From Tuwongella immobilis (GTDB taxonomy: Bacteria; Planctomycetota; Planctomycetia; Gemmatales; Gemmataceae), in assembly GCF_901538355.1 (NCBI RefSeq), contig NZ_LR593887.1:2332920-2396919 (forward strand): a stretch of 64,000 nucleotides of DNA, read 5' to 3'. Shown one piece after another: positions 13,223 to 25,673 of the stretch. The notes below the pieces were generated by a model, which was given only the letters and a program-made list of their open reading frames with translations, searched no databases and was not told where the DNA came from. How positions within the stretch are numbered: the first letter of the stretch is position 1; each line of letters opens with the position of its first letter. The position numbers and the translations under genes were made by a program.

Positions 13223-13338
13223 CGCGGGGGATTCTCCAACAAACCCGGAAATCTTCATGAAATCGTATTCTAGCGAAGCGCGGCAAAATCGATACAATGC
13301 GACCTGGGATGGCTGCCATCGGCACGAGGCTCGAACCC

Positions 13339-16092
13339 ATGTTCCACGACCATCCACTGGATCGCATCTTTCGCCCGCGCTCGGTTGCGGTCATTGGGGC
13401 TAGCGCGACGCCAAACAGCGTCGGTAATGTCTTGATGCGCAATCTGTTAGGGAATCCATTCGGTGGCGTCATCTACCCCGTGAATCCCAATCGCCGCGCC
13501 GTGCAAGGGGTGCGATGCTATTCCAACCTGGCCGAAATTCCGGATACCATCGATCTGGCGATTATCGCAGTCAAGGCGGAACTGGTTCCATCGGTAGTCG
13601 CCGATTGTGTCGACAAAGGCGTCGCGGGGGCGATTATTCTGTCGGCGGGGTTTAGCGAATTGGGGCAGGCTGGGCGGGAGTTGGAGCAGCGAATTCTGGC
13701 CATTGCCGCTGGTAAATTGCGAATCATCGGGCCGAATTGCTTGGGAGTGATGCATCCGCTCAATCGGCTGAATGCGAGTTTTGCGGCGGAAATGGCCAAG
13801 CCGGGCCGCGTTGCGCTGCTGAGTCAATCCGGGGCGGTTTGCACATCGATTTTAGATTGGGCCAACGGGAAGAATATCGGATTCTCGGCGTTCGTGAGTG
13901 TCGGGGCGATGATCGATGTCGATTGGGCTGACCTGATCGACTACTTCGGAGATGACCCCGAAACAACAAGCATTCTGTTGTACATGGAATCGATTGGCGA
14001 TGTGCGCGGGTTTATCTCCGCTGCGCGGGCGGTGGCCCGGCATAAGCCGATTATCGTCGTAAAGGCTGGTCGGAACGAGATTTCTGCTCGCGTGGCGGCC
14101 TCCCACACCGGGGCGATGCTGGGGAGCGATGCGGTATTCGAGTCTGCCTTTCGCCGGGCAGGTGTGCTGCGGGTGAGCAGCATTCGCGATCTGTTCCATA
14201 TGGCGGAAGTGCTGTCCATGCAACCACTTCCGGACGGATTCCGACTGGCGATTCTCACCAATGCCGGGGGGCCGGCGGTGATGGCGGTCGATGCCCTGAT
14301 CGCGGGTGGGGGACAACTCGCGCCATTGTCAGCCGAGACACTCGCCGCGTTGGATGCCGTCTGCCCGCCGTTCTGGAGCCACGCCAACCCGGTCGATTTG
14401 CTCGGCGATGCCTCTCCAGAATTGTATCGACAATCGTTTGAGATTTTGTCGCGTGATCCTGGTGTGGACGGCGTGCTGGTGTTGTTGACACCGCAAGCCA
14501 TGACGCAACCCGAGAACACCGCACGACTTCTGGCACCATTCGCACGTTCCGTTCGCAAGCCGGTGTTGGCGGGATTCATGGGCGGGCGGATGATTCACGC
14601 CAGCCGAGCGATTCTGAGCGCCGCGGGGATGCCCGCATTCGACACACCCGAAGCCGCCGTCCGTGCCTTTCTGTTACTCGCACAATATCGCGATAATTTG
14701 CGATTGTTGTACGAACGACCGGATGCACTCCCGGAAGGACCACCGCCGCGATTCGATGATGTGCAGCGCATGGTGGCGCGGGCACGCATGGAAGGGCGGA
14801 CGTTGCTGACCGAAGCGGAATCGAAGCAACTCCTGGCAGCGTATGACATTCCGATCGTGCCGACGCGACATTGCGGATCACCCGAAGAAGCGATTGCCGC
14901 CGCGGAGCAACTGGGTTACCCGGTCGTCTTAAAGCTGGAATCGCGGGTGATTTCCCACAAGACCGAGGCGGGGGGCGTTCGGCTGGATCTCCGCACTCCG
15001 GCTGCGGTTCGGGAAGCCTTTCATGCCATTCAGACAGCTGTGATTGCATATGCCGAGCAGCATTCGATTGTCGGCGATATTTTCACCGGCGTCACGGTTC
15101 AACCGATGATCCCGGCAGGCGGCTATGAGCTGATTCTCGGATCAGCATTAGATGAGCAGTTCGGCCCCGTGATCGTCTTTGGCACGGGCGGCATTCTGAC
15201 GGAAGTCTATCAGGATCGATCGTGGGCACTACCACCGTTGAATCGGACGTTGGTCAAGCGACTGATCGAACGCACTCGGATCTACCAAGCGTTAAAGGGC
15301 GTTCGTGGGCGCAAGTCCATTCCCATGGCCGACTTAGAGACGCTGCTGGTGCGATTCAGCCAATTGCTGGTCGATTTCCCCGATTTGGGCGAAGTCGAGA
15401 TTAACCCGCTGATCGCCACCGAGGAGCGATTGATCGCCGTCGATGCCCGTGTGATGCTGACCGCCCAAGATAGTCTGATTAGCCCGCGACGATTGGCGAT
15501 TCATCCGTATCCGAATCAATATACGAGTGTCTGGGAGCCAGATCTCAGCCGATTGCGGGCGACTGCGAATCGACTCCCGACCGGAACGACGCTGCTGATT
15601 CGGGCATTGCGGCCGGAAGATGAGCCGTTGCTGGAAAATCTATTTAAAACCTTGTCGGAACATACGATCCGAATGCGATTCTTTCGGCTGATCCGCCAAT
15701 TGACGAAAGACAATTTGATTCGGCTCTGCCACGTCGATTATGAGCGCGAGTTGGCCCTGGTGGCGATTGCCGAGCTTCCAGGGCAGGGAGCGCAAGCGGT
15801 TGGCATTGCGAGTTTTGCCCGCGATCCATCCAGCGATGAAGCCGAGTTCGCCGTCGTGGTTTCGGATGCTTGGCAGGGTATTGGATTGGGCCGCGAGTTG
15901 GTTTCTCGGTTGGTCTCGATTGCGCCGCAACGCGGGATTCTTCGGCTCACCGGAGCGACCTTTCGGGAAAATCTCGCCATGCGTAAACTCTGTACGAGTC
16001 TGGGGTTCACGCTGCACGACACTGATGATCCCCAAGTGCTGGAACTGCGTCGGGATTTGCTGTTGATGCCGCCCGGCTCGGCGTTCCTGTGA
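13339..16092 (+). CDS. Acyl-CoA synthetase (NDP-forming)/GNAT fusion, Pat-like protein acetyltransferase
   Basis: A 917-residue protein. ATG 13339 has GAGG 9 bases upstream. Residues about 8-460 match the CoA-binding and ligase parts of NDP-forming acyl-CoA synthetases (IFRPRSVAVIGASATPNSVGN, GPNCLGVMHP, LLSQSGAVC, and AASHTGAMLGSD with the conserved histidine). Residues about 480-700 are the ATP-grasp domain (YPVVLKLESRVISHKTEAGGV, FGPVIVFGTGGILTEVY). Residues about 750-905 are a GNAT domain (LIRALRPEDEPLLENLF, GIGLGRELVSRLVSIA). This is the architecture of Pat/PatZ lysine acetyltransferases, which modify metabolic enzymes such as acetyl-CoA synthetase. The ligase histidine is retained, unlike in E. 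coli PatZ as I recall it, so catalytic synthetase activity remains possible. The next gene follows after 29 bases. Confidence 0.88.
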   Translation: MFHDHPLDRIFRPRSVAVIGASATPNSVGNVLMRNLLGNPFGGVIYPVNPNRRAVQGVRCYSNLAEIPDTIDLAIIAVKAELVPSVVADCVDKGVAGAIILSAGFSELGQAGRELEQRILAIAAGKLRIIGPNCLGVMHPLNRLNASFAAEMAKPGRVALLSQSGAVCTSILDWANGKNIGFSAFVSVGAMIDVDWADLIDYFGDDPETTSILLYMESIGDVRGFISAARAVARHKPIIVVKAGRNEISARVAASHTGAMLGSDAVFESAFRRAGVLRVSSIRDLFHMAEVLSMQPLPDGFRLAILTNAGGPAVMAVDALIAGGGQLAPLSAETLAALDAVCPPFWSHANPVDLLGDASPELYRQSFEILSRDPGVDGVLVLLTPQAMTQPENTARLLAPFARSVRKPVLAGFMGGRMIHASRAILSAAGMPAFDTPEAAVRAFLLLAQYRDNLRLLYERPDALPEGPPPRFDDVQRMVARARMEGRTLLTEAESKQLLAAYDIPIVPTRHCGSPEEAIAAAEQLGYPVVLKLESRVISHKTEAGGVRLDLRTPAAVREAFHAIQTAVIAYAEQHSIVGDIFTGVTVQPMIPAGGYELILGSALDEQFGPVIVFGTGGILTEVYQDRSWALPPLNRTLVKRLIERTRIYQALKGVRGRKSIPMADLETLLVRFSQLLVDFPDLGEVEINPLIATEERLIAVDARVMLTAQDSLISPRRLAIHPYPNQYTSVWEPDLSRLRATANRLPTGTTLLIRALRPEDEPLLENLFKTLSEHTIRMRFFRLIRQLTKDNLIRLCHVDYERELALVAIAELPGQGAQAVGIASFARDPSSDEAEFAVVVSDAWQGIGLGRELVSRLVSIAPQRGILRLTGATFRENLAMRKLCTSLGFTLHDTDDPQVLELRRDLLLMPPGSAFL

Positions 16093-16121
16093 TGGTCCCC
16101 AATTGGAAAGAAAGGAATCCG

Positions 16122-18515
16122 ATGCGATTTCGATACCACTCACGATGCCTTCTGGGCGTCGGGATGGGGCTGCTGGTTCTGGCCGTCATCGGCCGTCCGA
16201 ATGAGCGGGCCTTCGCTCAAACTGCTCCAACGGTCGCCCCGATCGTCCTGGCACCGGAAACCACCCCGGCCATCCAAGCGCTGAGCACCTTCATTGAAGA
16301 ACAGCGCCAGGAGAAGGGAATCCCGGCTATTTCGATCGCTTTAGTCGACGATCAGCGCGTCGTTTGGAGCGCGGGCTTCGGGCTGATGCATCCGCGAGTC
16401 GGCCGCAAAGCGACTGCCGACACCGCGTATTGTGTCGGTTCGGTCTCGAAATTGTACACCGACATCGCCGTCATGCAGCTCGTGGAAAAGGGTGAGCTGT
16501 CGCTGGATGCCCCGATTCAGCAGGCGATCCGCCGCTTTACTCCACAAAATCTGTTTGAACAACCCATTACTCTGCGGCAACTGATGACGCATCGATCGGG
16601 ATTGGTCCGCGAGCCGCCGGTTGGGAATTACTTCGATTCCACGCAACCGTCGTTGGAACAAACGGTTCTGAGTCTCAATTCGACGACGCTGGTTTATCCC
16701 CCTGGCAAGCGAATCAAATACTCCAATGCCGGGATCGCCGCTGTGGGATACGCCGTCGAGTTCAGCCAACGCGAAGCCTTTGGCCGGTATATCCAACGGA
16801 CGTTACTCGATCCGATGGGCATGAAATCGACATCATTCCAATTGTCTGCCCGCAATACGCCGCAGTTCGCCGATTCGATCATGTGGACACACATTGGCAA
16901 AACTTTCCCGGCGCCGACCTTTGAAATGGGGTTGGGACCAGCGGGGTCGATGATTTCGACCGTCAACGATCAGACGCAATTGCTCAAGATGATCTTTGGC
17001 AATGGCATGGTCAACGGCGTTCGCATTCTCAAGCCGGAATCATTGCGAGAAATGCTGACGCCGCAATTCGTCCAAAAAGACGACACGGTCAAAATCGGTC
17101 TGGGATTCTTTCTGAGTGAATTCGAAGGCAAACTCCGAGCCGGTCACGGCGGCGCAGTCTACGGCTTTGCGACGGAATTCGCCGCGATCCCGAGCGAAAA
17201 GCTTGGTGTGGTCGTGGTTTGCAGCAAAGACATCGCCAATGCCGTCTCGACCCGAATTGCCGATGAAGCCCTGCGATTGATGCTGGCCACCAAGGCGGGC
17301 AAGCCGCTGCCGACGATCGCCCGCACCAGCGCACTCGACCCCGCTCGTTGCCGCGTGCTGGCGGGCCGCTACCAAAATGGCACCGAGTGGATCGATCTAC
17401 TCGAACGCGATGGCCGATTGTGGATGCTGCCGAGTCGGGGCGGGTATCGCGTCGAACTTAAGGGAATCGAGAACGATCTGATTGGCGATGATGTCCATAG
17501 CTACGGCACCCGTTTGAAGGTGGAGCCGGGCAAACTCATCATCCGCGATCGCGTCTTCACCCAGGTGAACGTGCCGCTGCCCAGCGAGATTCCCGACAAT
17601 TGGAAGGGACTCATCGGAGATTATGGCGAAAATCATAATGTGCTGACCATCTTGGAGAAAGATGGCAAACTCCACGCATTGATCGAATGGGCGTTCCTGT
17701 ATCCGCTGACGCAGGAAGCCGACGATGTGTTCGCGTTCCCATCCTATGGGTTGTACCAAGATGAGAAGCTGATTTTTACCCGCGATGCCAAAGGCCGAGC
17801 GGAGTCGGTGAAGGCGGCGGAAGTGACCTTCAATCGCCGTCGAATTGCCGGCGAAAATGGCGAGTTGTTCAAGATTCGGCCAACGAAAGCCATTCCGGCA
17901 CTTCGAGATGCGGCATTGAAGGCCCAACCGACCGTTCTGCCCGGCAAGTTCCGCGAGCCGGAATTGGTCGATCTGCAACGGCTCGATCCGTCGCTGAAGT
18001 TCGACATCCGTTACGCGACGGAGAATAATTTTCTGGGCACGCCCGTGTATACGTCCGCTCGTGCGTTTATGCAAAAGCCGGCGGCCGAGGCGTTGCTGCG
18101 GGTGCATCAGAAATTGGAGTCGCGCGGGCTGGGATTGGTCATCTTCGATGCCTATCGTCCCTGGCATGTCACGAAAATCTTCTGGGATGCGACCCCCGCG
18201 AATCAGAAGAATTTCGTTGCCGATCCATCCAAGGGATCGCGACATAATCGTGGCTGTGCGGTCGATTTGTCGTTGTATGATCGCAAGACGGGCCAAGTGG
18301 TGATGATGCCGAGCGGATTCGATGAGTTCTCGGATCGCGCGTACCCGGATTATCTCGGCGGCACCGCTCGCCAACGCTGGTTCCGCGATTTGTTGCGCGA
18401 GGCCATGCAGGAAGAGGGATTCACCGTCTATTCCGATGAATGGTGGCACTTCGATTTCCGCGATTGGCAGCAGTATAACCTGCTCAATGCGACATTCGAA
18501 GAATTGAAGCGATAA
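16122..18515 (+). CDS. Beta-lactamase-fold serine hydrolase fused to a VanX-type D-Ala-D-Ala dipeptidase
   Basis: A 797-residue exported protein (signal peptide about 1-33, ending RAFAQ; AAAGGAA ribosome site). Residues about 45-390 form a class C beta-lactamase/DD-peptidase domain: SVSK (catalytic S107, K110), KYSNAG (YxN) and GHGGAVYG (HxG, replacing KTG). Residues about 400-600 are beta-rich, resembling the lipocalin-like tails of such hydrolases. Residues about 610-797 match the VanX/DdpX dipeptidase (peptidase M15D): FDAYRPWHV, SRHNRGCAVDLSLYD with zinc ligands H708 and D715, and EWWHFDF with E773 and H776. All key residues of both enzymes are present. It should act on D-Ala-D-Ala peptides or peptidoglycan fragments in the periplasm. 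A hairpin terminator follows. Confidence 0.88.
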   Translation: MRFRYHSRCLLGVGMGLLVLAVIGRPNERAFAQTAPTVAPIVLAPETTPAIQALSTFIEEQRQEKGIPAISIALVDDQRVVWSAGFGLMHPRVGRKATADTAYCVGSVSKLYTDIAVMQLVEKGELSLDAPIQQAIRRFTPQNLFEQPITLRQLMTHRSGLVREPPVGNYFDSTQPSLEQTVLSLNSTTLVYPPGKRIKYSNAGIAAVGYAVEFSQREAFGRYIQRTLLDPMGMKSTSFQLSARNTPQFADSIMWTHIGKTFPAPTFEMGLGPAGSMISTVNDQTQLLKMIFGNGMVNGVRILKPESLREMLTPQFVQKDDTVKIGLGFFLSEFEGKLRAGHGGAVYGFATEFAAIPSEKLGVVVVCSKDIANAVSTRIADEALRLMLATKAGKPLPTIARTSALDPARCRVLAGRYQNGTEWIDLLERDGRLWMLPSRGGYRVELKGIENDLIGDDVHSYGTRLKVEPGKLIIRDRVFTQVNVPLPSEIPDNWKGLIGDYGENHNVLTILEKDGKLHALIEWAFLYPLTQEADDVFAFPSYGLYQDEKLIFTRDAKGRAESVKAAEVTFNRRRIAGENGELFKIRPTKAIPALRDAALKAQPTVLPGKFREPELVDLQRLDPSLKFDIRYATENNFLGTPVYTSARAFMQKPAAEALLRVHQKLESRGLGLVIFDAYRPWHVTKIFWDATPANQKNFVADPSKGSRHNRGCAVDLSLYDRKTGQVVMMPSGFDEFSDRAYPDYLGGTARQRWFRDLLREAMQEEGFTVYSDEWWHFDFRDWQQYNLLNATFEELKR

Positions 18516-18606: not shown

Positions 18607-20886
18607 TTACGGCAATTTGCCGCGTTCGCCTTCAATCGCATCCGCGGCGTGTGCCCGAGTAATCGTCTCTTCGGTCGAAGTGGGATCCACTTCGCGACAG
18701 GTCGCGGTGAGGTGATTGACCAGATCCTCCAAATCGGTCTGCCAATCGAGCGGATCCCCTTCGCTGGGCGTCACTTGCAGAAATTCCTGAATCAGCAGAA
18801 TCATCCGCAACAGATGCCGGAAGATAATCCCTTCTTGCTTGATGAGATCGCGTGTTCGGACATACAAATTAAAGTTTCCGGCAAAGTCACTCATGAGCGA
18901 ACCCGCGGCCCAGACAGCGGTTGCGCTCACATCCGTCACCTCGGGCCGCAGTGCCTCGAAGTACATCCGCAGTTTCTCGGCAAAGTGCGGCGGACGATCT
19001 TCCCATGGGATGAACTCGTCTTCGCCGAAGGAGTCGTCGGTGTCATCGTCTGCCGATGGTTCAGGCTTGGTGGCCATCAGTCCGCGGGCGATCAATTCGG
19101 GATCGAGTCGATCGCGGGTGAGCGGTCCAGGGGCCATCTCCCAGGGAACCCGCACGAATTTCAGCAAGGGGCGGGGAAGTTCCAACACGCTTTCAAACGC
19201 TTGGATGCGTTCCATGCGGCTGGCGATGCCCAATTGGTCGGCCAAGAATGCCCCGTATAAGGGGTGGACGCTCCGAAAGACGAGTAGTCGATCGAGCGTT
19301 GGATTGGCATGCGCCAGCACCGACTCATACGGCGGCGGTGGCGATTTCGATTCGGGATCGATCACCGGTGGCGGCGGGTCGAGCGTGATGTAGCCCATCT
19401 CGTGCAGCGTCCGCAGCATCGACTCTAAGTTCTTCTGCGCAGCGATGATGCGCGGTTCATCCAACATCCGCTTGCGAATCACCCCGCGAACCACGCTGAC
19501 TTCCGGAGACAGCTTCAACAGATAGGCCAATAATCGCCAGGGGATTTGGCCTTTGCTGTAGAGTTTGCCGGGGGGCGCATTCTGGAGTTTGTCGAAATGC
19601 TGATCGGTCCAGTATTGCCGTTTCTCGTTGCGCGTCGGTTTCTTCCGCTTGAGTTCCTTCTTTTTCCGAATCAACATCGGGTCTTTGGTATCTTCGGGAA
19701 TCAATTCGTACTGGCGTTTCCAGCGCAGAATGCGAACATCGTCTTCATGGGCCAATGCGTAGACGAATCCTTGGGTATCGTACTGCGGACGACCGGCGCG
19801 ACCGAAAATCTGATGGGCGGTACTCGCATCGATGAGTTTCTCACCGCCAAACGGCCCCTTCATCAGGCTGGTCAGCACGACGGAGCGAGCGGGGAGATTG
19901 ATCCCGGCGGCGAGTGTCTCGGTACACACGGCGACGCTCAGCAGTTTCTGTTCGAACAATTCTTCGACTTTGCGACGATACACCGGCAGCAGCCCAGCAT
20001 GGTGGACGCCCACGCCGCGACGGAGCATTTGTTTGAGCTTTGGGCCAACTCCCTGCGTCCAATCCAATCCTTCGATGTGATCCAACAGCGGCTGACGCTG
20101 CGAAGGATGCAGAAGGTCTTTCCCCTTCAGCATTTCCGCCACAGACCAGCATTCATCGCGGTTGAAGCAGAACACCAGCGCAGGGGTATGTCGGATGGTC
20201 GGATCACCTTTGGTCATATCGAGCAGCAGCTCGTCCAAAAACTGATCGGGCACCCATCGGTAACTCAGTGGTACCTTGCGCTCGGTGCCTTCGACCAATT
20301 CGAGTTTGCGACCGTGAACCCGATCCAGCCAGTTGGTAAATTCGACGGAATTTCCGACCGTTGCGGAGAGCAACAGCAGGCGGATGTGCTTGGGCAGCAT
20401 CGACAGCGACAATTCCCAGACGATTCCGCGCTGCGGATCGGCGAAGCTGTGGAATTCGTCCATGACGACGGCGGAAACGCGGCCCCAGTCGAGGTCTTCC
20501 GGGTTCAACAGGCGATTGAGCAGAATTTCGGCGACAACCACCAGCACACGCGCGCCAGGATTGACGCGGCGGTTGCCGGTGATCAGGCCGACATCGTCGC
20601 GGCTGAATCCCCACAATTCCGCGGCGTCCTGCATTTCGGCGAATTTCTGTTCGGAGAGCGCGATCAGTGGCGTGGTGTAATAGGCCACGGTATCGGTCCG
20701 CAGTGCCTCGTAGAGCGCGGCTTGGGCAATCAGCGTCTTGCCGGTGCCGGTGGGGGCACAAACCAGCACACCGTTTTCTGCCGTAAACCAATTCAGGATC
20801 GCATCTTCCTGCAATGGATACGGCGTGTAGGGAATCATCCCCAGATATTCGGTCAACAATTGTTCGCGATCGGGAATCGGTGCCAT
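18607..20886 (-). CDS. Ski2-like superfamily 2 DEAD/DEAH-box helicase
   Basis: A 759-residue helicase. Motifs, counted from the chosen ATG: Q-motif-like YPLQEDAI (23-30), Walker A APTGTGKT (44-51), TTPLIAL, DEFH box (143-146), SAT motif LLLLSATVGN, and the C-terminal lobe with GVGVHHAGLLPVYRRKVEELF, CTETLAAGINLPARSVV and QIFGRAGRPQYD. This set is typical of Ski2/Mtr4/Hel308-like RNA or DNA helicases. Residues about 400-440 are very basic. An alternative GTG start at 20916 overlaps the upstream stop by four bases (GTGA) and would add ten residues; the ATG has GAG/GAGG 9-15 bases upstream. It is the last gene of a four-gene helicase operon. Confidence 0.88.
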   Translation of the reverse strand: MAPIPDREQLLTEYLGMIPYTPYPLQEDAILNWFTAENGVLVCAPTGTGKTLIAQAALYEALRTDTVAYYTTPLIALSEQKFAEMQDAAELWGFSRDDVGLITGNRRVNPGARVLVVVAEILLNRLLNPEDLDWGRVSAVVMDEFHSFADPQRGIVWELSLSMLPKHIRLLLLSATVGNSVEFTNWLDRVHGRKLELVEGTERKVPLSYRWVPDQFLDELLLDMTKGDPTIRHTPALVFCFNRDECWSVAEMLKGKDLLHPSQRQPLLDHIEGLDWTQGVGPKLKQMLRRGVGVHHAGLLPVYRRKVEELFEQKLLSVAVCTETLAAGINLPARSVVLTSLMKGPFGGEKLIDASTAHQIFGRAGRPQYDTQGFVYALAHEDDVRILRWKRQYELIPEDTKDPMLIRKKKELKRKKPTRNEKRQYWTDQHFDKLQNAPPGKLYSKGQIPWRLLAYLLKLSPEVSVVRGVIRKRMLDEPRIIAAQKNLESMLRTLHEMGYITLDPPPPVIDPESKSPPPPYESVLAHANPTLDRLLVFRSVHPLYGAFLADQLGIASRMERIQAFESVLELPRPLLKFVRVPWEMAPGPLTRDRLDPELIARGLMATKPEPSADDDTDDSFGEDEFIPWEDRPPHFAEKLRMYFEALRPEVTDVSATAVWAAGSLMSDFAGNFNLYVRTRDLIKQEGIIFRHLLRMILLIQEFLQVTPSEGDPLDWQTDLEDLVNHLTATCREVDPTSTEETITRAHAADAIEGERGKLP

Positions 20887-20912
20887 CGAACGGTTCTCAA
20901 CCTCAGAAAAGA

Positions 20913-23045
20913 TCACGATCGCAATTCAATCTGAACGACGGCCAATGCGGTTTGCAGGGCGGCAATCTGATCGGCGGCCACTGCGAAATGCACCGGGCCG
21001 AGGCGGGCCTGCAACAGTTCGCGGGTGGTGGGCCACTGCCAGATGCCGTCGGCGACTTCTTCGCTAATGACGCTAACCACGTGCATGGCCTCGATTTGGG
21101 CCGTTTGCGACGTGGTTTTCCGCATCAGGAGCTTGGCGGCGGCAGACAACGGTTTGCCCGATCGATCGATGGCCCACTGTTCCAGATCGCTCAATCGATA
21201 GCCGCTGGCGTCGGCGGCTTGCAGGGAACGGGTGGTAAGCCGATAGCGTCGGAATCCAACGGTCGGACTATCGAGCGTTTCCGCGAATCGCCCCAACTCC
21301 GCTTCCAACAGGAGATCCGCCTGGGCGACATCCACCGTGAATGACACACCATCATCGTCGAATGTGACACATTGCTGCGGACGATTTTCGTAATCGCGAT
21401 TGCCGATGAGGCGAAAATTCTTGTAATCGATTGAGCTTTCGCTGGTCACTAAACCAATGCGATCGGTGAGCTTGATTTCGACCAAGCCACGGGAGAACGC
21501 CGCGTCCAACTCGGCCGCAGAGGTAAATTCGATGAGCACTGCGCCGCCGTAAACCGTGATGCGGTCACGTTTATTGGCCCAGCGCTGAAGGGCATCTTGC
21601 ACCACCGGCGGCATCGGCTTCATGCCATGCTGCGACAATAATTGGATGATGTCCTTCAGCGAGAACCCGGATTCCAACCCGCGATACACCTGTTCGGCTT
21701 GCAGTTCGAGCATGCACGCCGAGGAGAGCGATTTCCACTTGGCGAAACGAGTCAACGATTGGATCAGCTTTGGATTTAGTCCCTGACGAAAGGCGATAAT
21801 CTCATTGTTGGGTTGCACCATCAGCGTTTGCCGAAACTCTGGCGCTGCAGCGGGTTCCGGTCCGCCGGCATAGAGATTTCGACCGAGTGGGGAGAGCCGC
21901 AATTGCAATTCATCGCCGATATTTCGGACTTCGATTAACTGCAATGGATACGCCAAGCCGAACAGGAAATGCTGGACCCAGGTTTCGGCTTGAGCGGCGG
22001 CGTTTTTGACTTTGCTGGGCCAACTCGGGTGGCGGGTTACGATCCATTCCGCGAGCAGTTGCGAGGTCGACCACCGCTCGGCGGGCAACCGACTGAGCAG
22101 AAACAGAATCAGAAAGCTAACCGATGGGAGCAGGGCTTCGGGATCGCTCTCCGGGAGTCCGCCCAGACAGGGGTCCCAATCTTCGATGCGCGAAATGCTC
22201 GATGCGAGCTGTTTCAGCACGGCGGAAAGCGATTCGTTCCACACCGCGGGGAACGGGCCGACGTGCAATTCCTGATCGCCCAGTTGAAGCAATCCCGAAG
22301 AGCGGGCCAGTGATAGCGCAAGCAGACCAAGATCCGGCACGGGGTCGTTGGAATCGATGAATGGTGCCTGCAAGGACTCATCGTTTTGCAGGCGGGTCAT
22401 GTCGCGCTTGAACAGGCTTTGCGATTGCGTCAGTCGGATGGGGTCGCCATCCAATTGTTGTCGAATGATTCCCAGCCGCAACAACCATTCCAGGCCGTCA
22501 CCTTGGCGGGCAGGTGGGCCGAGGGTGTCGTCGCTTTGCGGGGCATCGATGTCAATCTCATCGAACTTCGAGCGTGACGCCACGAAGGGATGAATCGAGA
22601 CATACGCTTGGGTGATGCCGTTGAGGCCGAGCCGCGATTCGAAGTCCTTGATGCTGCCGCCGTTGGGGAGCGGATCGGGGTAGAGTAGCGCACATTCCAG
22701 CAGGTTGAGAATCGGGGCCAGTCCATCGGTGTGGCCGAGTGTGGCGAGGATGCTGAGCAGGTGACCGATTCGCCAGCGGTGACAGCGACTGAGGCCGAAG
22801 ATGGCAAGGGTGTGCCGAGCGGCGACGGGGAGGTCTTTGAGTCGCCGGTCTAATACGGGGGCATTCTTCAGTGTGTCTTGGATGCGGTCGATGAGTTCTT
22901 CGACCGGCCATTGATTGCGCGGTTTGAACAGGCGCGACGCGACCGACCGAACGAGCGGTTCGGCATAACTTCGGAGGACGACCAGAATGCGTTCAATCGG
23001 GTCGTTCCCAGCAGAAGCCGCCGATTGAGGGGAAGGCATCGACAT
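20913..23045 (-). CDS. XPB/Ssl2 N-terminal-like (helicase_C_3) domain protein
   Basis: A 710-residue protein without Walker motifs. Residues about 400-520 resemble the helicase XPB/Ssl2 N-terminal domain family (PF13625): FRQTLMVQPNNEIIAFRQGLNPKLIQSLTRFAKWKS, then SGFSLKDIIQLLSQHGMKPMPPVVQDALQRWANKRDRITVY. The N-terminal half is helical with repeated LL-rich segments, possibly winged-helix modules. In mycobacteria a similar protein is encoded beside the XPB helicase, which fits the context here. It begins 6 bases after the small upstream gene and its stop overlaps the GTG of the Ski2-like gene (GTGA), so it is probably translated as part of one unit. It may act as a partner or clamp for one or both helicases; that is inference. 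Confidence 0.75.
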   Translation of the reverse strand: MSMPSPQSAASAGNDPIERILVVLRSYAEPLVRSVASRLFKPRNQWPVEELIDRIQDTLKNAPVLDRRLKDLPVAARHTLAIFGLSRCHRWRIGHLLSILATLGHTDGLAPILNLLECALLYPDPLPNGGSIKDFESRLGLNGITQAYVSIHPFVASRSKFDEIDIDAPQSDDTLGPPARQGDGLEWLLRLGIIRQQLDGDPIRLTQSQSLFKRDMTRLQNDESLQAPFIDSNDPVPDLGLLALSLARSSGLLQLGDQELHVGPFPAVWNESLSAVLKQLASSISRIEDWDPCLGGLPESDPEALLPSVSFLILFLLSRLPAERWSTSQLLAEWIVTRHPSWPSKVKNAAAQAETWVQHFLFGLAYPLQLIEVRNIGDELQLRLSPLGRNLYAGGPEPAAAPEFRQTLMVQPNNEIIAFRQGLNPKLIQSLTRFAKWKSLSSACMLELQAEQVYRGLESGFSLKDIIQLLSQHGMKPMPPVVQDALQRWANKRDRITVYGGAVLIEFTSAAELDAAFSRGLVEIKLTDRIGLVTSESSIDYKNFRLIGNRDYENRPQQCVTFDDDGVSFTVDVAQADLLLEAELGRFAETLDSPTVGFRRYRLTTRSLQAADASGYRLSDLEQWAIDRSGKPLSAAAKLLMRKTTSQTAQIEAMHVVSVISEEVADGIWQWPTTRELLQARLGPVHFAVAADQIAALQTALAVVQIELRS

Positions 23046-23051
23046 GGGGAG

Positions 23052-23303
23052 CTATTCCGCCACGGGAGTCGAGCCAACCACCTGCGGCGTGTGGCCCATT
23101 TTGCGAAGTTCTTCCAAGACCGATTCGACTCGACCGGGACGCACCAGCAGAACGCGTTCGGAGAGTCGACCGGCGACATCCTGCGCCAATTTCTTTCGGG
23201 ACAATAATTCTTCGGCCAGGATACCATCTTCGGTCACAACCAAGCAAACCCGCTTGTGTAATTTGACCGCAAAACGGCTATTCGGTTGTCGATCCGGGGT
23301 CAT
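23052..23303 (-). CDS. Small protein of unknown function in the helicase operon (83 aa)
   Basis: An 83-residue protein starting at an ATG inside the last 26 bases of the XPB-like gene, with GGAG 6 bases upstream, and ending 6 bases before the next gene. A longer frame reaches 23348 but has no better start. The sequence (RFAVKLHKRVCLVVTEDG..., then VAGRLSERVLLVRPGRVESVLEELRKMGHTPQVVG) reads as a compact alpha/beta domain. Tight overlap on both sides and its ribosome site make it a real gene. I do not recognise the family. It has no cysteine pair, signal or membrane segment. A partner or regulator of the flanking helicase proteins is the natural guess. Confidence 0.7.
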   Translation of the reverse strand: MTPDRQPNSRFAVKLHKRVCLVVTEDGILAEELLSRKKLAQDVAGRLSERVLLVRPGRVESVLEELRKMGHTPQVVGSTPVAE

Positions 23304-25053
23304 GGGCAACTCCATATTGTTGCGGAATCGACAGATATTCGCTCGCATCTTGGATATCGTAGCTGTATCCCTGTTCGGTCAGGAACATTTGCCGATGCTG
23401 GGCAAAGTCTTGCTCGCGGGTATCCCGACTGACCAGCGTGTAGAAGTTTGCCGCGGCATCGTTACTGCTCTTGGGCCGGAGAATCCGACCCAGTCGCTGC
23501 GCTTCTTCTTGCCGCGAGCCGAAGGTGCCGGAAATCTGAATCAGCACGTTGGCATCCGGCAAATCGATGGCGAAATTTCCCACTTTGGAAAGCACTAAAT
23601 GCCGGGTTTTTCCCGTACGGAATTCATTATATAAAACTTCGCGGTCGGCTTGACTGGTTTGACCGGTAATCAGCGGAATCTCGAACCGTTCGGAGACTCG
23701 CCGTAACTGCGTGAGATATTGGCCGATAATCAACACACGTTGATCGGAATATTGTTCGAGCAACTTTTCGATGACGTCGTCTTTGAGCGTATTCTCGCTG
23801 GCGATGCGGTACTTGTTCCGCAGTTCGGCCACGGCATATTCCCGACGTTGATCTTCTGGGAGCGGCAGTCGGATTTCGGTACAGGTCGCCGTCGCGATCC
23901 AGCCGCGATGCTCCAATTCCCGCCAGGGTACATCGTATTTCTTCGGGCCGATCAGCGTGAAGACATCGCTTTCGCGGCCATCTTCGCGCACCAGCGTTGC
24001 GGTAAGCCCCAATCGACGTCGGGCTTGAATTTCCGCCGTCACTCGGAAGACCGGAGCGGGGAGCAGGTGAACTTCGTCATACACAATCAGCCCCCAGTCT
24101 TGCTGTTCAAACAGCTTGAAGTGGGGGAACGATTCGGTTTTATCCGGCCGATAGGTGACAATCTGGTAGGTGGCGAGCGTCACGGGGGCAATGTCTTTGG
24201 TCTCGCCGGTGTATTCGGCGACCATATCATCGGCGAGATCGGTTTTGTCCAGGATTTCCCGTCGCCATTGCTTCACCGAGGTGACGCTGGTGGTGAGCAC
24301 CAAGGTGGAGCGTTTCAACAGCGTCATGGCAGTGATGCCGACGATGGTTTTGCCCGCGCCACACGGCAGCACAATCACGCCACTGCCGCCGCGAACATCG
24401 CCACCGGCGTAAAAGATATTCGCCGCTTCACGCTGATAATCGCGTGGGGCAAAGGTCATGCCACTGCGTGCGAGTGGACCACGCAGCAACATCGGGAGCG
24501 GTGCCCCGTCGGTGTACCCGGCCAAATCTTCCGCCGGATAGCCCACCACAATCAACGCTTGTTTCAACACTCCACGATACATCGCCGCGACGGTGTAACT
24601 TGTCTTGTCGATGCGTTCACCGAGATAGGCGACGACTTTCTTTTGGCGGGTGAGTTCATCCAGGAGCAGGGGATCTTCGCAAACCAGTTTCAGATTCGCT
24701 TCGTCGATCCGTTCCAGTCGGACCCGACCATACCGGCTGACGACTTCGGTCAGATCGGTTGCCAGATTCGCGGGAATCGGGAATTTCGTATAGCGGTGCA
24801 GCACTTCCAGCATCTGTTCGGCGGTAATGCCCGCAGCAGCGGCATTCCACAACGACAGGTTGCTAATTCGATAGGTATGGATGTGTTCGGGGGATTTCTC
24901 CAACTCCGCGAACGGAGCCAGGGCATCCCGAGCGGCTTCATAGCGCGGATTGTCCACCTCGACCAGGACGGAACGATCTCCCTGGACGATCAGCGGATTC
25001 GTCGGATCGTAGGTCGTGGGACTGGCCGCAACTGGCTTTCGGATAGGGGGCAT
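23278..25053 (-). CDS. XPB-like DNA repair helicase (SF2)
   Basis: A 591-residue protein from an ATG with GAGGA 5 bases upstream; longer frames run through the upstream intergenic region and are rejected. The N-terminal part (about 15-185) matches the XPB N-terminal and damage-recognition regions (NPLIVQGDRSVLVEVDNPRYEAARDALAPFAELEKSPEHIHTYRIS is split across these). Motifs: Walker A LPCGAGKT (229-236), DEVH box (326-329), LGLTATLVREDGRES with the XPB-specific RED motif (356-358), and C-terminal QRLGRILRPK. Known bacterial XPB proteins are 3'-5' DNA helicases thought to act in repair. It heads the helicase operon, overlapping the next small gene by 26 bases. Confidence 0.92.
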   Translation of the reverse strand: MPPIRKPVAASPTTYDPTNPLIVQGDRSVLVEVDNPRYEAARDALAPFAELEKSPEHIHTYRISNLSLWNAAAAGITAEQMLEVLHRYTKFPIPANLATDLTEVVSRYGRVRLERIDEANLKLVCEDPLLLDELTRQKKVVAYLGERIDKTSYTVAAMYRGVLKQALIVVGYPAEDLAGYTDGAPLPMLLRGPLARSGMTFAPRDYQREAANIFYAGGDVRGGSGVIVLPCGAGKTIVGITAMTLLKRSTLVLTTSVTSVKQWRREILDKTDLADDMVAEYTGETKDIAPVTLATYQIVTYRPDKTESFPHFKLFEQQDWGLIVYDEVHLLPAPVFRVTAEIQARRRLGLTATLVREDGRESDVFTLIGPKKYDVPWRELEHRGWIATATCTEIRLPLPEDQRREYAVAELRNKYRIASENTLKDDVIEKLLEQYSDQRVLIIGQYLTQLRRVSERFEIPLITGQTSQADREVLYNEFRTGKTRHLVLSKVGNFAIDLPDANVLIQISGTFGSRQEEAQRLGRILRPKSSNDAAANFYTLVSRDTREQDFAQHRQMFLTEQGYSYDIQDASEYLSIPQQYGVAHDPGSTTE

Positions 25054-25181: not shown

Positions 25182-25673
25182 TCAGTCGGCAGATTCGGTC
25201 GATTCGTTCGTCGCCGCAGAATCGCGCAATCGATAGCGAAAATCGCAATGCGATGCTCCGCCCAAGAGCGTTTGCGTGCGCTGGAATTCGATGGCGGGAT
25301 TGAATCCTTCGATCATCGCGGCATCTCGACTGCACGACAATAAATCCCCGAATTCGGATAATCCCAATCGTCGATACATCTCCGCGAACGCACAGCGCGT
25401 CACATTGAATTCGAGTCGATCTGGCGACGATTGCAGTACTTCCAACGACAAGGCATTGCCACCCCGCCAGCGTTCGATGGTGGCTTGCAAATGCGTCAGC
25501 GTGTTGCCCTGTGCCGATTCGGCGGCAGCGCATCCGGCATCGTGCGCCAGTTGACGAATGACTCCGGCCAGAATTTCGCGAGTGCGGGATTCTCCCAATT
25601 CGGCTGCAAATGCCCGCAAAATCGGTCCCAAAATCTTTGCTTCAATCTCGCGTTGTTCCAGTAATGTGACCAT
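25182..25673 (-). CDS. ATC hydrolase (L-2-amino-thiazoline-4-carboxylate hydrolase)-like protein
   Basis: A 163-residue protein with GGAG 9 bases before its ATG; a much longer open frame upstream is an antisense shadow of the next gene. The C-terminal half (about 85-145) carries the family pattern: FNVTRCAFAEMYRRLGLSEFGDLLSCSRDAAMIEGFNPAIEF, then RTQTLLGGASHCDFRYR, including the conserved cysteines. Members of PF14196 are small soluble proteins, one of which hydrolyses a cysteine precursor; most have no known activity. It ends 128 bases before the XPB-like gene on the same strand, so co-transcription is possible. It is divergent from the membrane coiled-coil gene. Confidence 0.65.
   Translation of the reverse strand: MVTLLEQREIEAKILGPILRAFAAELGESRTREILAGVIRQLAHDAGCAAAESAQGNTLTHLQATIERWRGGNALSLEVLQSSPDRLEFNVTRCAFAEMYRRLGLSEFGDLLSCSRDAAMIEGFNPAIEFQRTQTLLGGASHCDFRYRLRDSAATNESTESAD

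Follow-up and report, generated by a model that had tools for sequence, protein, structure and literature searches.

A conserved XPB gene unit in Tuwongella immobilis with two further proteins that resemble the TFIIH subunits p52 and p8

A 64,000-nucleotide stretch of the Tuwongella immobilis genome (assembly GCF_901538355.1, contig NZ_LR593887.1, positions 2,332,920 to 2,396,919; hereafter the window) carries four tightly packed open reading frames (ORFs) on its minus strand, from position 25053 down to 18607. The first three encode an XPB-type helicase, a small protein of 83 residues, and a protein of 710 residues (hereafter the partner). The products of these three genes are likely to be a bacterial counterpart of TFIIH's XPB-p52-p8 motor module, and the best reading of the unit is a three-subunit, TFIIH-like XPB translocase that probably serves in repair. 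The genes, their order, and their co-occurrence are conserved among relatives, the domains of the proteins are similar to those of the TFIIH subunits, and a site corresponding to a p52-p8 contact is conserved. A preliminary description made from this sequence alone had pointed to an XPB-centered unit, which holds; the fourth gene, for a Ski2-like helicase, had been counted in as well, which is not supported, and the resemblance of the two extra proteins to p52 and p8 had been missed.

Conservation of the XPB unit

The four ORFs and their arrangement are confirmed as they had been described, and the source genome consists of one contig of 6.69 Mb. The first (23278..25053, minus strand, as are all features of the operon; ATG at 25053; 591 aa) encodes an XPB/Ssl2-type superfamily 2 (SF2) DNA helicase with matches to NF045503, PF13625, and PF16203, and it scores 861.8 bits against the NCBIfam model NF045503 ('DNA repair helicase XPB'), for which the cut-off is 610. 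Its domains are an N-terminal clutch-type domain, a region like the XPB damage-recognition domain (DRD), and two RecA domains. The clutch-type (Helicase_C_3) N-terminal domain (NTD) lies at 24718..24999 (approximately residues 19-112, limits set by the authors), with residues 21-149 matching PF13625 at E 1e-38, and the DRD region, which is p8-like by profile comparison with hhalign, lies at 24538..24696 (approximately residues 120-172). The small ORF (23052..23303; ATG at 23303) shares 26 bp with the XPB gene, and the gene of the partner (20913..23045), which matches PF13625 (Helicase_C_3) at E 8e-13, starts 6 bases past it. Thirty relatives of the small ORF could be aligned at 39-75% identity and 29 of these 30 adjoin the same partner gene, indicating that the small ORF is a real gene and not a chance frame.

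Co-occurrence was examined in 41 genomes, namely the source genome and 40 relatives, none of them a second genome of the source genus, and gene order in 34 loci from 33 other genomes that encode the p52-like protein. The 710-aa protein is present in 34 of the 41 genomes and XPB, at E below 1e-100, in 35. The small protein, detected with a profile of 25 proteins from three phyla (A6), is also present in 34 genomes, and these are exactly the same 34 that encode the 710-aa protein. Two genomes (G005 and G017) encode XPB without either of the others. As a separate observation, one genome that is 87% complete (G031, locus L060) carries the p52-like and p8-like genes approximately 7 kb apart on opposite strands, and no XPB was found in it. 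The order XPB-small-710 occurs in 24 of the 34 loci, which bears out the earlier proposal that XPB and a small protein belong to a conserved unit of several genes. Of the remaining loci, 5 have the pair small-710, 1 has the two genes apart on opposite strands, and 4 have the 710-aa gene alone; these 4 include one half of a broken locus (L058) and a short contig (L051). All three genes are kept, scattered over three different contigs each, in G027 and G030, and in G001 the XPB gene lies 2 Mb from the small-710 pair on the same chromosome. Of the 32 genomes that belong to the same family and order, 30 retain p52 and p8. Other neighbor clusters are each seen in 7 of 42 loci at most (neighbors were clustered, not annotated); at the loci of family f30, two frames occupy the same place.

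Beyond these relatives, the set XPB-p8-p52 is found again in Planctomycetota and Deinococcota and also in Acidobacteriota, the last of these phyla being assigned by inference. In a sample of 199 genomes from across Planctomycetota, 93 have a match to a profile built on the 710-aa protein. Among 40 extra planctomycete loci, drawn mainly from the best-scoring of these 93, 36 have the partner after XPB and 2 more contain the small gene, the last 2 being a lone partner on a short contig and an artefact of frame overlap. Eight distant planctomycete loci recovered with the small-protein profile comprise 7 with the order XPB-small-partner and 1 with small-partner, and the complete named genome of Planctomycetes bacterium Pan216 (CP036279.1) carries the unit. 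Three Deinococcus plasmid records contain XPB (D. taeanensis, D. sp. QL22, and D. aquaticus), and each of them has the order XPB-small-partner. A Blastocatellia metagenome-assembled genome (Acidobacteriota, the phylum being inferred from its title) has the order XPB-partner-small. A survey of 199 acidobacterial genomes gave 20 that match the small-protein profile, 3 with a free gene (85-97 aa), 15 within frames of 637-828 aa, and 2 within frames of 397-434 aa. Ten acidobacterial loci (that of the metagenome-assembled genome, L182, plus 9 of the 20 other matching genomes) showed XPB-partner-small in 2 cases, XPB-small-partner in 1, a partner-like frame only in 4, and nothing at the thresholds used in 3. 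It should be noted that a contig titled 'Bacteroidales bacterium' (L172), a title that is probably a mislabel, carries the p8-p52 pair.

Resemblance to p52 and p8

Profiles and a structure model suggest that the 710-aa protein is p52/Tfb2-like. Searches were made against 177,635 distinct sequences of the PDB, with hits listed at E<=10. For the 710-aa sequence alone, the only hits are seven p52/Tfb2 chains (E 0.46-1.4). A profile of 30 relatives (A2) has 7 hits, which include human p52 (8e-4) and Tfb2 (0.003) but no XPB chain, and a cross-phylum partner profile (A3; 13 rows, including a Deinococcus row) reaches Tfb2 at 2.3e-5, human p52 at 6e-4, and fungal p52 at 1.7e-3 over 187 columns, with XPB at best at 7e-3. 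When the AF2 model of the partner (predicted local distance difference test, pLDDT, 88.7) was compared using Foldseek, ranks 1-19 were TFIIH chains (best E 8.7e-10, 544 columns) that are read here as p52/Tfb2 from printed entry titles, only some of the chains being named in the sequence searches above; ranks 20 and below include XPB. VIA Z-scores of the partner clutch against XPB NTD and p52 chains are 12-15. The partner matches the NCBIfam model tfb2 at E 0.007, far below the cut-off, and the Pfam Tfb2 model (PF03849) is weakly reached by 4 of 30 A2 members (best 2.7e-4). As a control, a profile of 14 planctomycete partners without a free p8 at their locus (A7) finds the XPB NTD and DRD at 6e-8, as against 0.05 for Tfb2, indicating that likeness to p52 and the presence of p8 go together.

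The 83-residue protein, in turn, looks like p8/Tfb5, as judged by a family profile, a structure model, and gene conservation. A profile of 31 sequences of the family (A1) has 16 hits in the PDB, the top five all being yeast Tfb5 (E 0.009-0.015) and the sixth a MarR-type regulator (E 0.095), and A6 reaches Tfb5 at 0.012-0.020, with the best single stretch of any hit (0.015). The single sequence gave no hits in the same search. Its AlphaFold model (pLDDT 74) has the element order E-H-H-E-E-H-E, which we take to be that of p8. In the Foldseek comparison of this model, Tfb5 chains appear from rank 8 down at 28-31% identity, whereas identities for the rest of the listed matches range from 11 to 26%, with nearly all at or below 21%. 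With a eukaryotic p8 profile of three sequences, the free bacterial p8 scores 21.2 by hhalign versus a maximum of 15.6 in 200 shuffles.

At the level of sequence modules, XPB reads as a clutch, a p8-like module, and a motor, and the partner as an N-terminal half followed by clutch1, p8a, clutch2, and p8ct, to which the free p8 is added. In the partner, clutch1 (21573..21836; residues 404-491, limits set by the authors) is the expected contact with XPB and p8a (21408..21572; residues 492-546), the first p8-like module, is the expected p8-binding site; the second Helicase_C_3-like module, clutch2, follows at 21111..21380 (residues 556-645) and the C-terminal p8-like module, p8ct, at 20928..21104 (residues 648-706). 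In hhalign pairings, which are single comparisons without library calibration, the p8 profile matches the partner C-terminus at 96.4%, partner residues 498-545 at 95.3%, and the XPB DRD at 94.6%, and the partner C-terminus matches the XPB DRD at 96.6%. Similarly, clutch1 matches clutch2 at 95.9% and the XPB NTD at 96.7%, and clutch2 matches the XPB NTD at 95.0%; p8 versus the clutch domains gives approximately 1%. Of 48 partners with p8, 46 have two clutches, the second being weak in some, and one of the exceptions is a truncated frame; the count covers 48 of 50, the two halves of one broken locus (L058 and L059) having been left out. A single clutch is found in all 41 partners without p8, where a p8-like module was detected in 31 and where 36 end 65-97 residues past the single clutch. 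Here, 'without p8' means that none was found in the fetched stretch (mostly approximately 10 kb), and the profile run over the whole genomes was the narrower A1.

Two further observations concern this architecture. First, a partner of 998 aa (L064, genome G037) has a p8a module that is seemingly split by an insert of approximately 40 residues. Second, in two Actinomycetota loci (L162 and L164) and on a plasmid of Paenibacillus cellulosilyticus (L163), XPB adjoins a partner with a single clutch and p8-like module that continues for a further approximately 130-150 residues, and in Actinomyces oris (L164) the genes of XPB and partner are divergent.

Contact site, mechanism, and alternative readings

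In a published account of TFIIH, R400 of human p52 is described as contacting D13 of p8 (PMC9557730). R495 of the partner (codon 21561-21563, minus strand, within p8a) aligns with this arginine, as counted on the printed human p52. An arginine occupies this place in 45 of 49 partners with p8 versus 3 of 41 without, and the acidic residue at 494 is found in 44 of 49 versus 3 of 41. W489, six places before R495, is present in 47 of 49 partners with p8 and in 38 of 41 without. The motif W...R-[DE]-R is thus common to the partner and human p52. The three p8-less partners with the arginine are from Arthrobacter (L162), Paenibacillus (L163), and a planctomycete (L127). On the side of the small protein, E24 faces D13 of human p8 in alignments, and D25 is one place off, the equivalence being unsure; D25 is kept in 29 of 31 A1 rows, and D or E is found in 23 of 25 A6 rows.

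Published descriptions of TFIIH (PMC6422496, PMC7708078, PMC9557730) report a pseudo-symmetric dimer of the p52 clutch with the XPB NTD, place p8 on the C-terminal domain of p52 and in contact with the second RecA domain, and report stimulation of the XPB ATPase by p52 and p8. By analogy, the clutch of the p52-like protein, expected to be clutch1, would pair with the clutch-type NTD of XPB, and the small p8-like protein would pair with p8a of the partner around R495. The presence of the same parts as in TFIIH suggests the same control, in which the p52-like and p8-like proteins would form a physical complex with the bacterial XPB translocase and govern its ATPase. A role in repair is proposed because of the XPB family to which the helicase belongs; a bacterial XPB is described as a 3'-5' helicase in vitro (PMC3353954).

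Several observations weigh against equating these proteins with p52 and p8. For the small protein, A6 is topped by a ribosomal protein when whole-sequence E is used for ranking (0.0005, made up of two short pieces, the best at 0.058), the Foldseek list is dominated by common ferredoxin-like folds, and the VIA Z-scores of 6.0 for Tfb5 and 5.3 for a human TFIIH chain read as p8 are within the range of many unrelated folds. The Pfam Tfb5 model (PF06331) finds nothing in the source genome at E<=10 and matches 2 of 31 A1 and 2 of 25 A6 members (best E 0.064), short of its gathering score of 23.5 bits. The eukaryotic p8 profile scores the C-terminus of the p52-like protein at 22.8 and the XPB DRD at 19.0, and it is therefore not discriminating, since these other p8-like modules score comparably to free bacterial p8. 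For the partner, whole-chain template modeling scores against p52 are approximately 0.2, such that only the domains match and their arrangement differs or is unsettled. Other p52-like proteins match XPB models rather than tfb2 in NCBIfam, PF03849 exceeds its gathering score of 34.5 bits in none of the 41 genomes, and only 5 of 10 weak PF03849 places fall on p52-like genes. Further, p8a (residues 498-545) matches the XPB DRD at only 2.0% by hhalign, and the link between the two thus rests on p8 as a bridge. The pair R348-E397 of human p52 is not kept, the place of E397 being taken by K, Q, or R in all 30 A2 rows (K here), and XPB Phe99, which is important for binding human p52, is said in one study not to be conserved in bacteria (PMC3353954). 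Finally, no more than two changes on the XPB tree (77 rows) are required to explain the presence of p8, most simply one origin and one loss, the latter in the cyanobacterium Gloeocapsopsis, which is also without the arginine and the second clutch. With only two such changes, the arginine contrast amounts to a clade difference over several phyla and not to repeated events.

Some of these points bear on a different account, considered rather unlikely, in which the partner and the small protein are bacterial duplicates of the N-terminal half of XPB (clutch and DRD) that work similarly to p52 and p8 without being orthologous to them, eukaryotic p52 and p8 being alike only through having been built from the same modules. 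That most modules are mutually similar by hhalign, that the p8-less type of partner is closest to XPB (A7), that the eukaryotic p8 profile does not single out free bacterial p8, and that several p52-like proteins match XPB models would all be expected under duplication. However, the p8-associated partner prefers p52/Tfb2 over XPB in three PDB comparisons, the p8 profiles retrieve Tfb5 and not the XPB DRD, and both the W...R-[DE]-R motif and the three-part gene set are held in common with eukaryotes. Counterparts of p52 and p8 are preferred here over independent duplicates. A bolder proposal, which is given somewhat less than even credence, is that the XPB-p52-p8 motor predates eukaryotes. It would have originated in bacteria when one unit within XPB, 'clutch + p8-like', was duplicated repeatedly; eukaryotic TFIIH would then have been built around a bacterial repair motor, or both would go back to one ancestor. 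A single fold would have been copied into the XPB DRD, the C-terminal domain of p52, and p8.

It is improbable that the unit opens DNA in connection with transcription, at bacterial RNA polymerase, rather than in repair. TFIIH does both, and the N-terminal region of the p52-like protein matches winged-helix regulators, a class of fold that is common; yet the partner is not a general protein, being found in 93 of the 199 genomes of the phylum-wide sample. Still less credible is an anti-phage defence role, the preliminary description having raised defence as one option. Helicase models of PADLOC are matched by XPB (best 1.7e-20) and by the Ski2-like helicase (best 7e-30), possibly through generic SF2 similarity, and the unit sits on plasmids in Deinococcus, but the p52-like and p8-like proteins are without a PADLOC hit at E<=0.01, and both the retention of p52 and p8 within the family and order and the lack of other widely recurring neighbor clusters, noted above, speak against defence.

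The four-part machine with the Ski2-like helicase that had been put forward initially is, despite a 4-bp gene overlap in the source genome, highly implausible, given that the four-gene order occurs in none of the 34 loci of relatives and that 26 of 40 other related genomes carry the Ski2-like gene away from the partner gene. This gene (18607..20916; GTG at 20916; 769 aa; PF00270), which overlaps the stop of the p52-like gene, encodes a Hel308-like protein with a marginal DUF3516 match just at the cut-off. It was not found in the 34 loci (33 genomes) of p52-bearing relatives, 30 of which have at least 1 kb of sequence past the partner gene, nor in the 88 loci scanned in all. Four of the 34 loci end at a contig end after the partner gene, and in one such genome (G002) the Ski2-like gene lies on its own short contig, so that a link there is possible. 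A four-gene unit was rejected on this gene order, and the Ski2-like helicase is judged to be a lineage-specific local neighbor and not part of the unit.

Other genes near the operon were also noted. An ATC_hydrolase (PF14196) gene (25182-25672, minus strand) lies directly upstream of XPB on the same strand, and no relative of it was found in the 34 related loci at E<=0.1. On the plus strand, 16089-18515 encodes an 808-aa fusion of a serine beta-lactamase/DD-peptidase (PF00144) with a VanX-type D-Ala-D-Ala dipeptidase (PF01427), and 13297-16092 encodes a CoA-binding/ATP-grasp acyl-CoA ligase fused to a GNAT acetyltransferase domain.

Comparison with known XPB systems

One published study states that p52 relatives had not been found in bacteria, and later work describes archaea as being without a TFIIH-like assembly and the function of XPB in archaea and bacteria as elusive (PMC13024598, PMC7672443). 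No report of a bacterial p52 or p8 was found by title or beginning of abstract in open-licence papers, subscription journals and preprints being outside this search. If the reading favored here is true, the roots of TFIIH lie in bacteria, named partners and a testable mode of working can be assigned to bacterial XPB, and a three-protein bacterial system becomes available as a simple model for p52 and for p8, the trichothiodystrophy-A protein.

Archaeal XPB-Bax1 also combines an XPB motor with a partner protein, and differs in that the bacterial operon partners are without a nuclease domain. The point made in the preliminary description that the unit is without Bax1 is confirmed for the four operon proteins, in which no nuclease family scores above cut-off; the search was confined to these proteins. 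At two haloarchaeal plasmid loci examined, neither a p52-like nor a p8-like gene lies alongside XPB. A closer bacterial comparison is the pair of XPB and a 'helicase-associated domain' protein found in Actinomycetota, Paenibacillus, and many planctomycetes, which likewise places XPB beside a Helicase_C_3 protein with a clutch. In contrast to the unit described here, the partner in that type has one clutch (41 of 41) and rarely the arginine (3 of 41), no p8 was found at the locus, and its planctomycete rows are closer to XPB than to p52.

The XPB-p52-p8 (Ssl2-Tfb2-Tfb5) module of TFIIH differs from the bacterial unit in that the bacterial partner has two clutch and p8-like units and that the bacterial sequences fall below the Pfam Tfb2 and Tfb5 cut-offs. 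Nor would the unit represent the whole of TFIIH, as p44/Ssl1 was not found (no PF04056 match in the source genome at E<=0.01) and the DEAD_2 (DinG/XPD-type) gene that is present in the source genome is unlinked to the XPB unit. What the two appear to have in common is an XPB with a clutch-type NTD, a DRD, and RecA cores, a partner with a clutch homologous to the XPB NTD and a p8-like module, a small p8-like protein, and, in p8a of the partner, the arginine that corresponds to the p8 contact.

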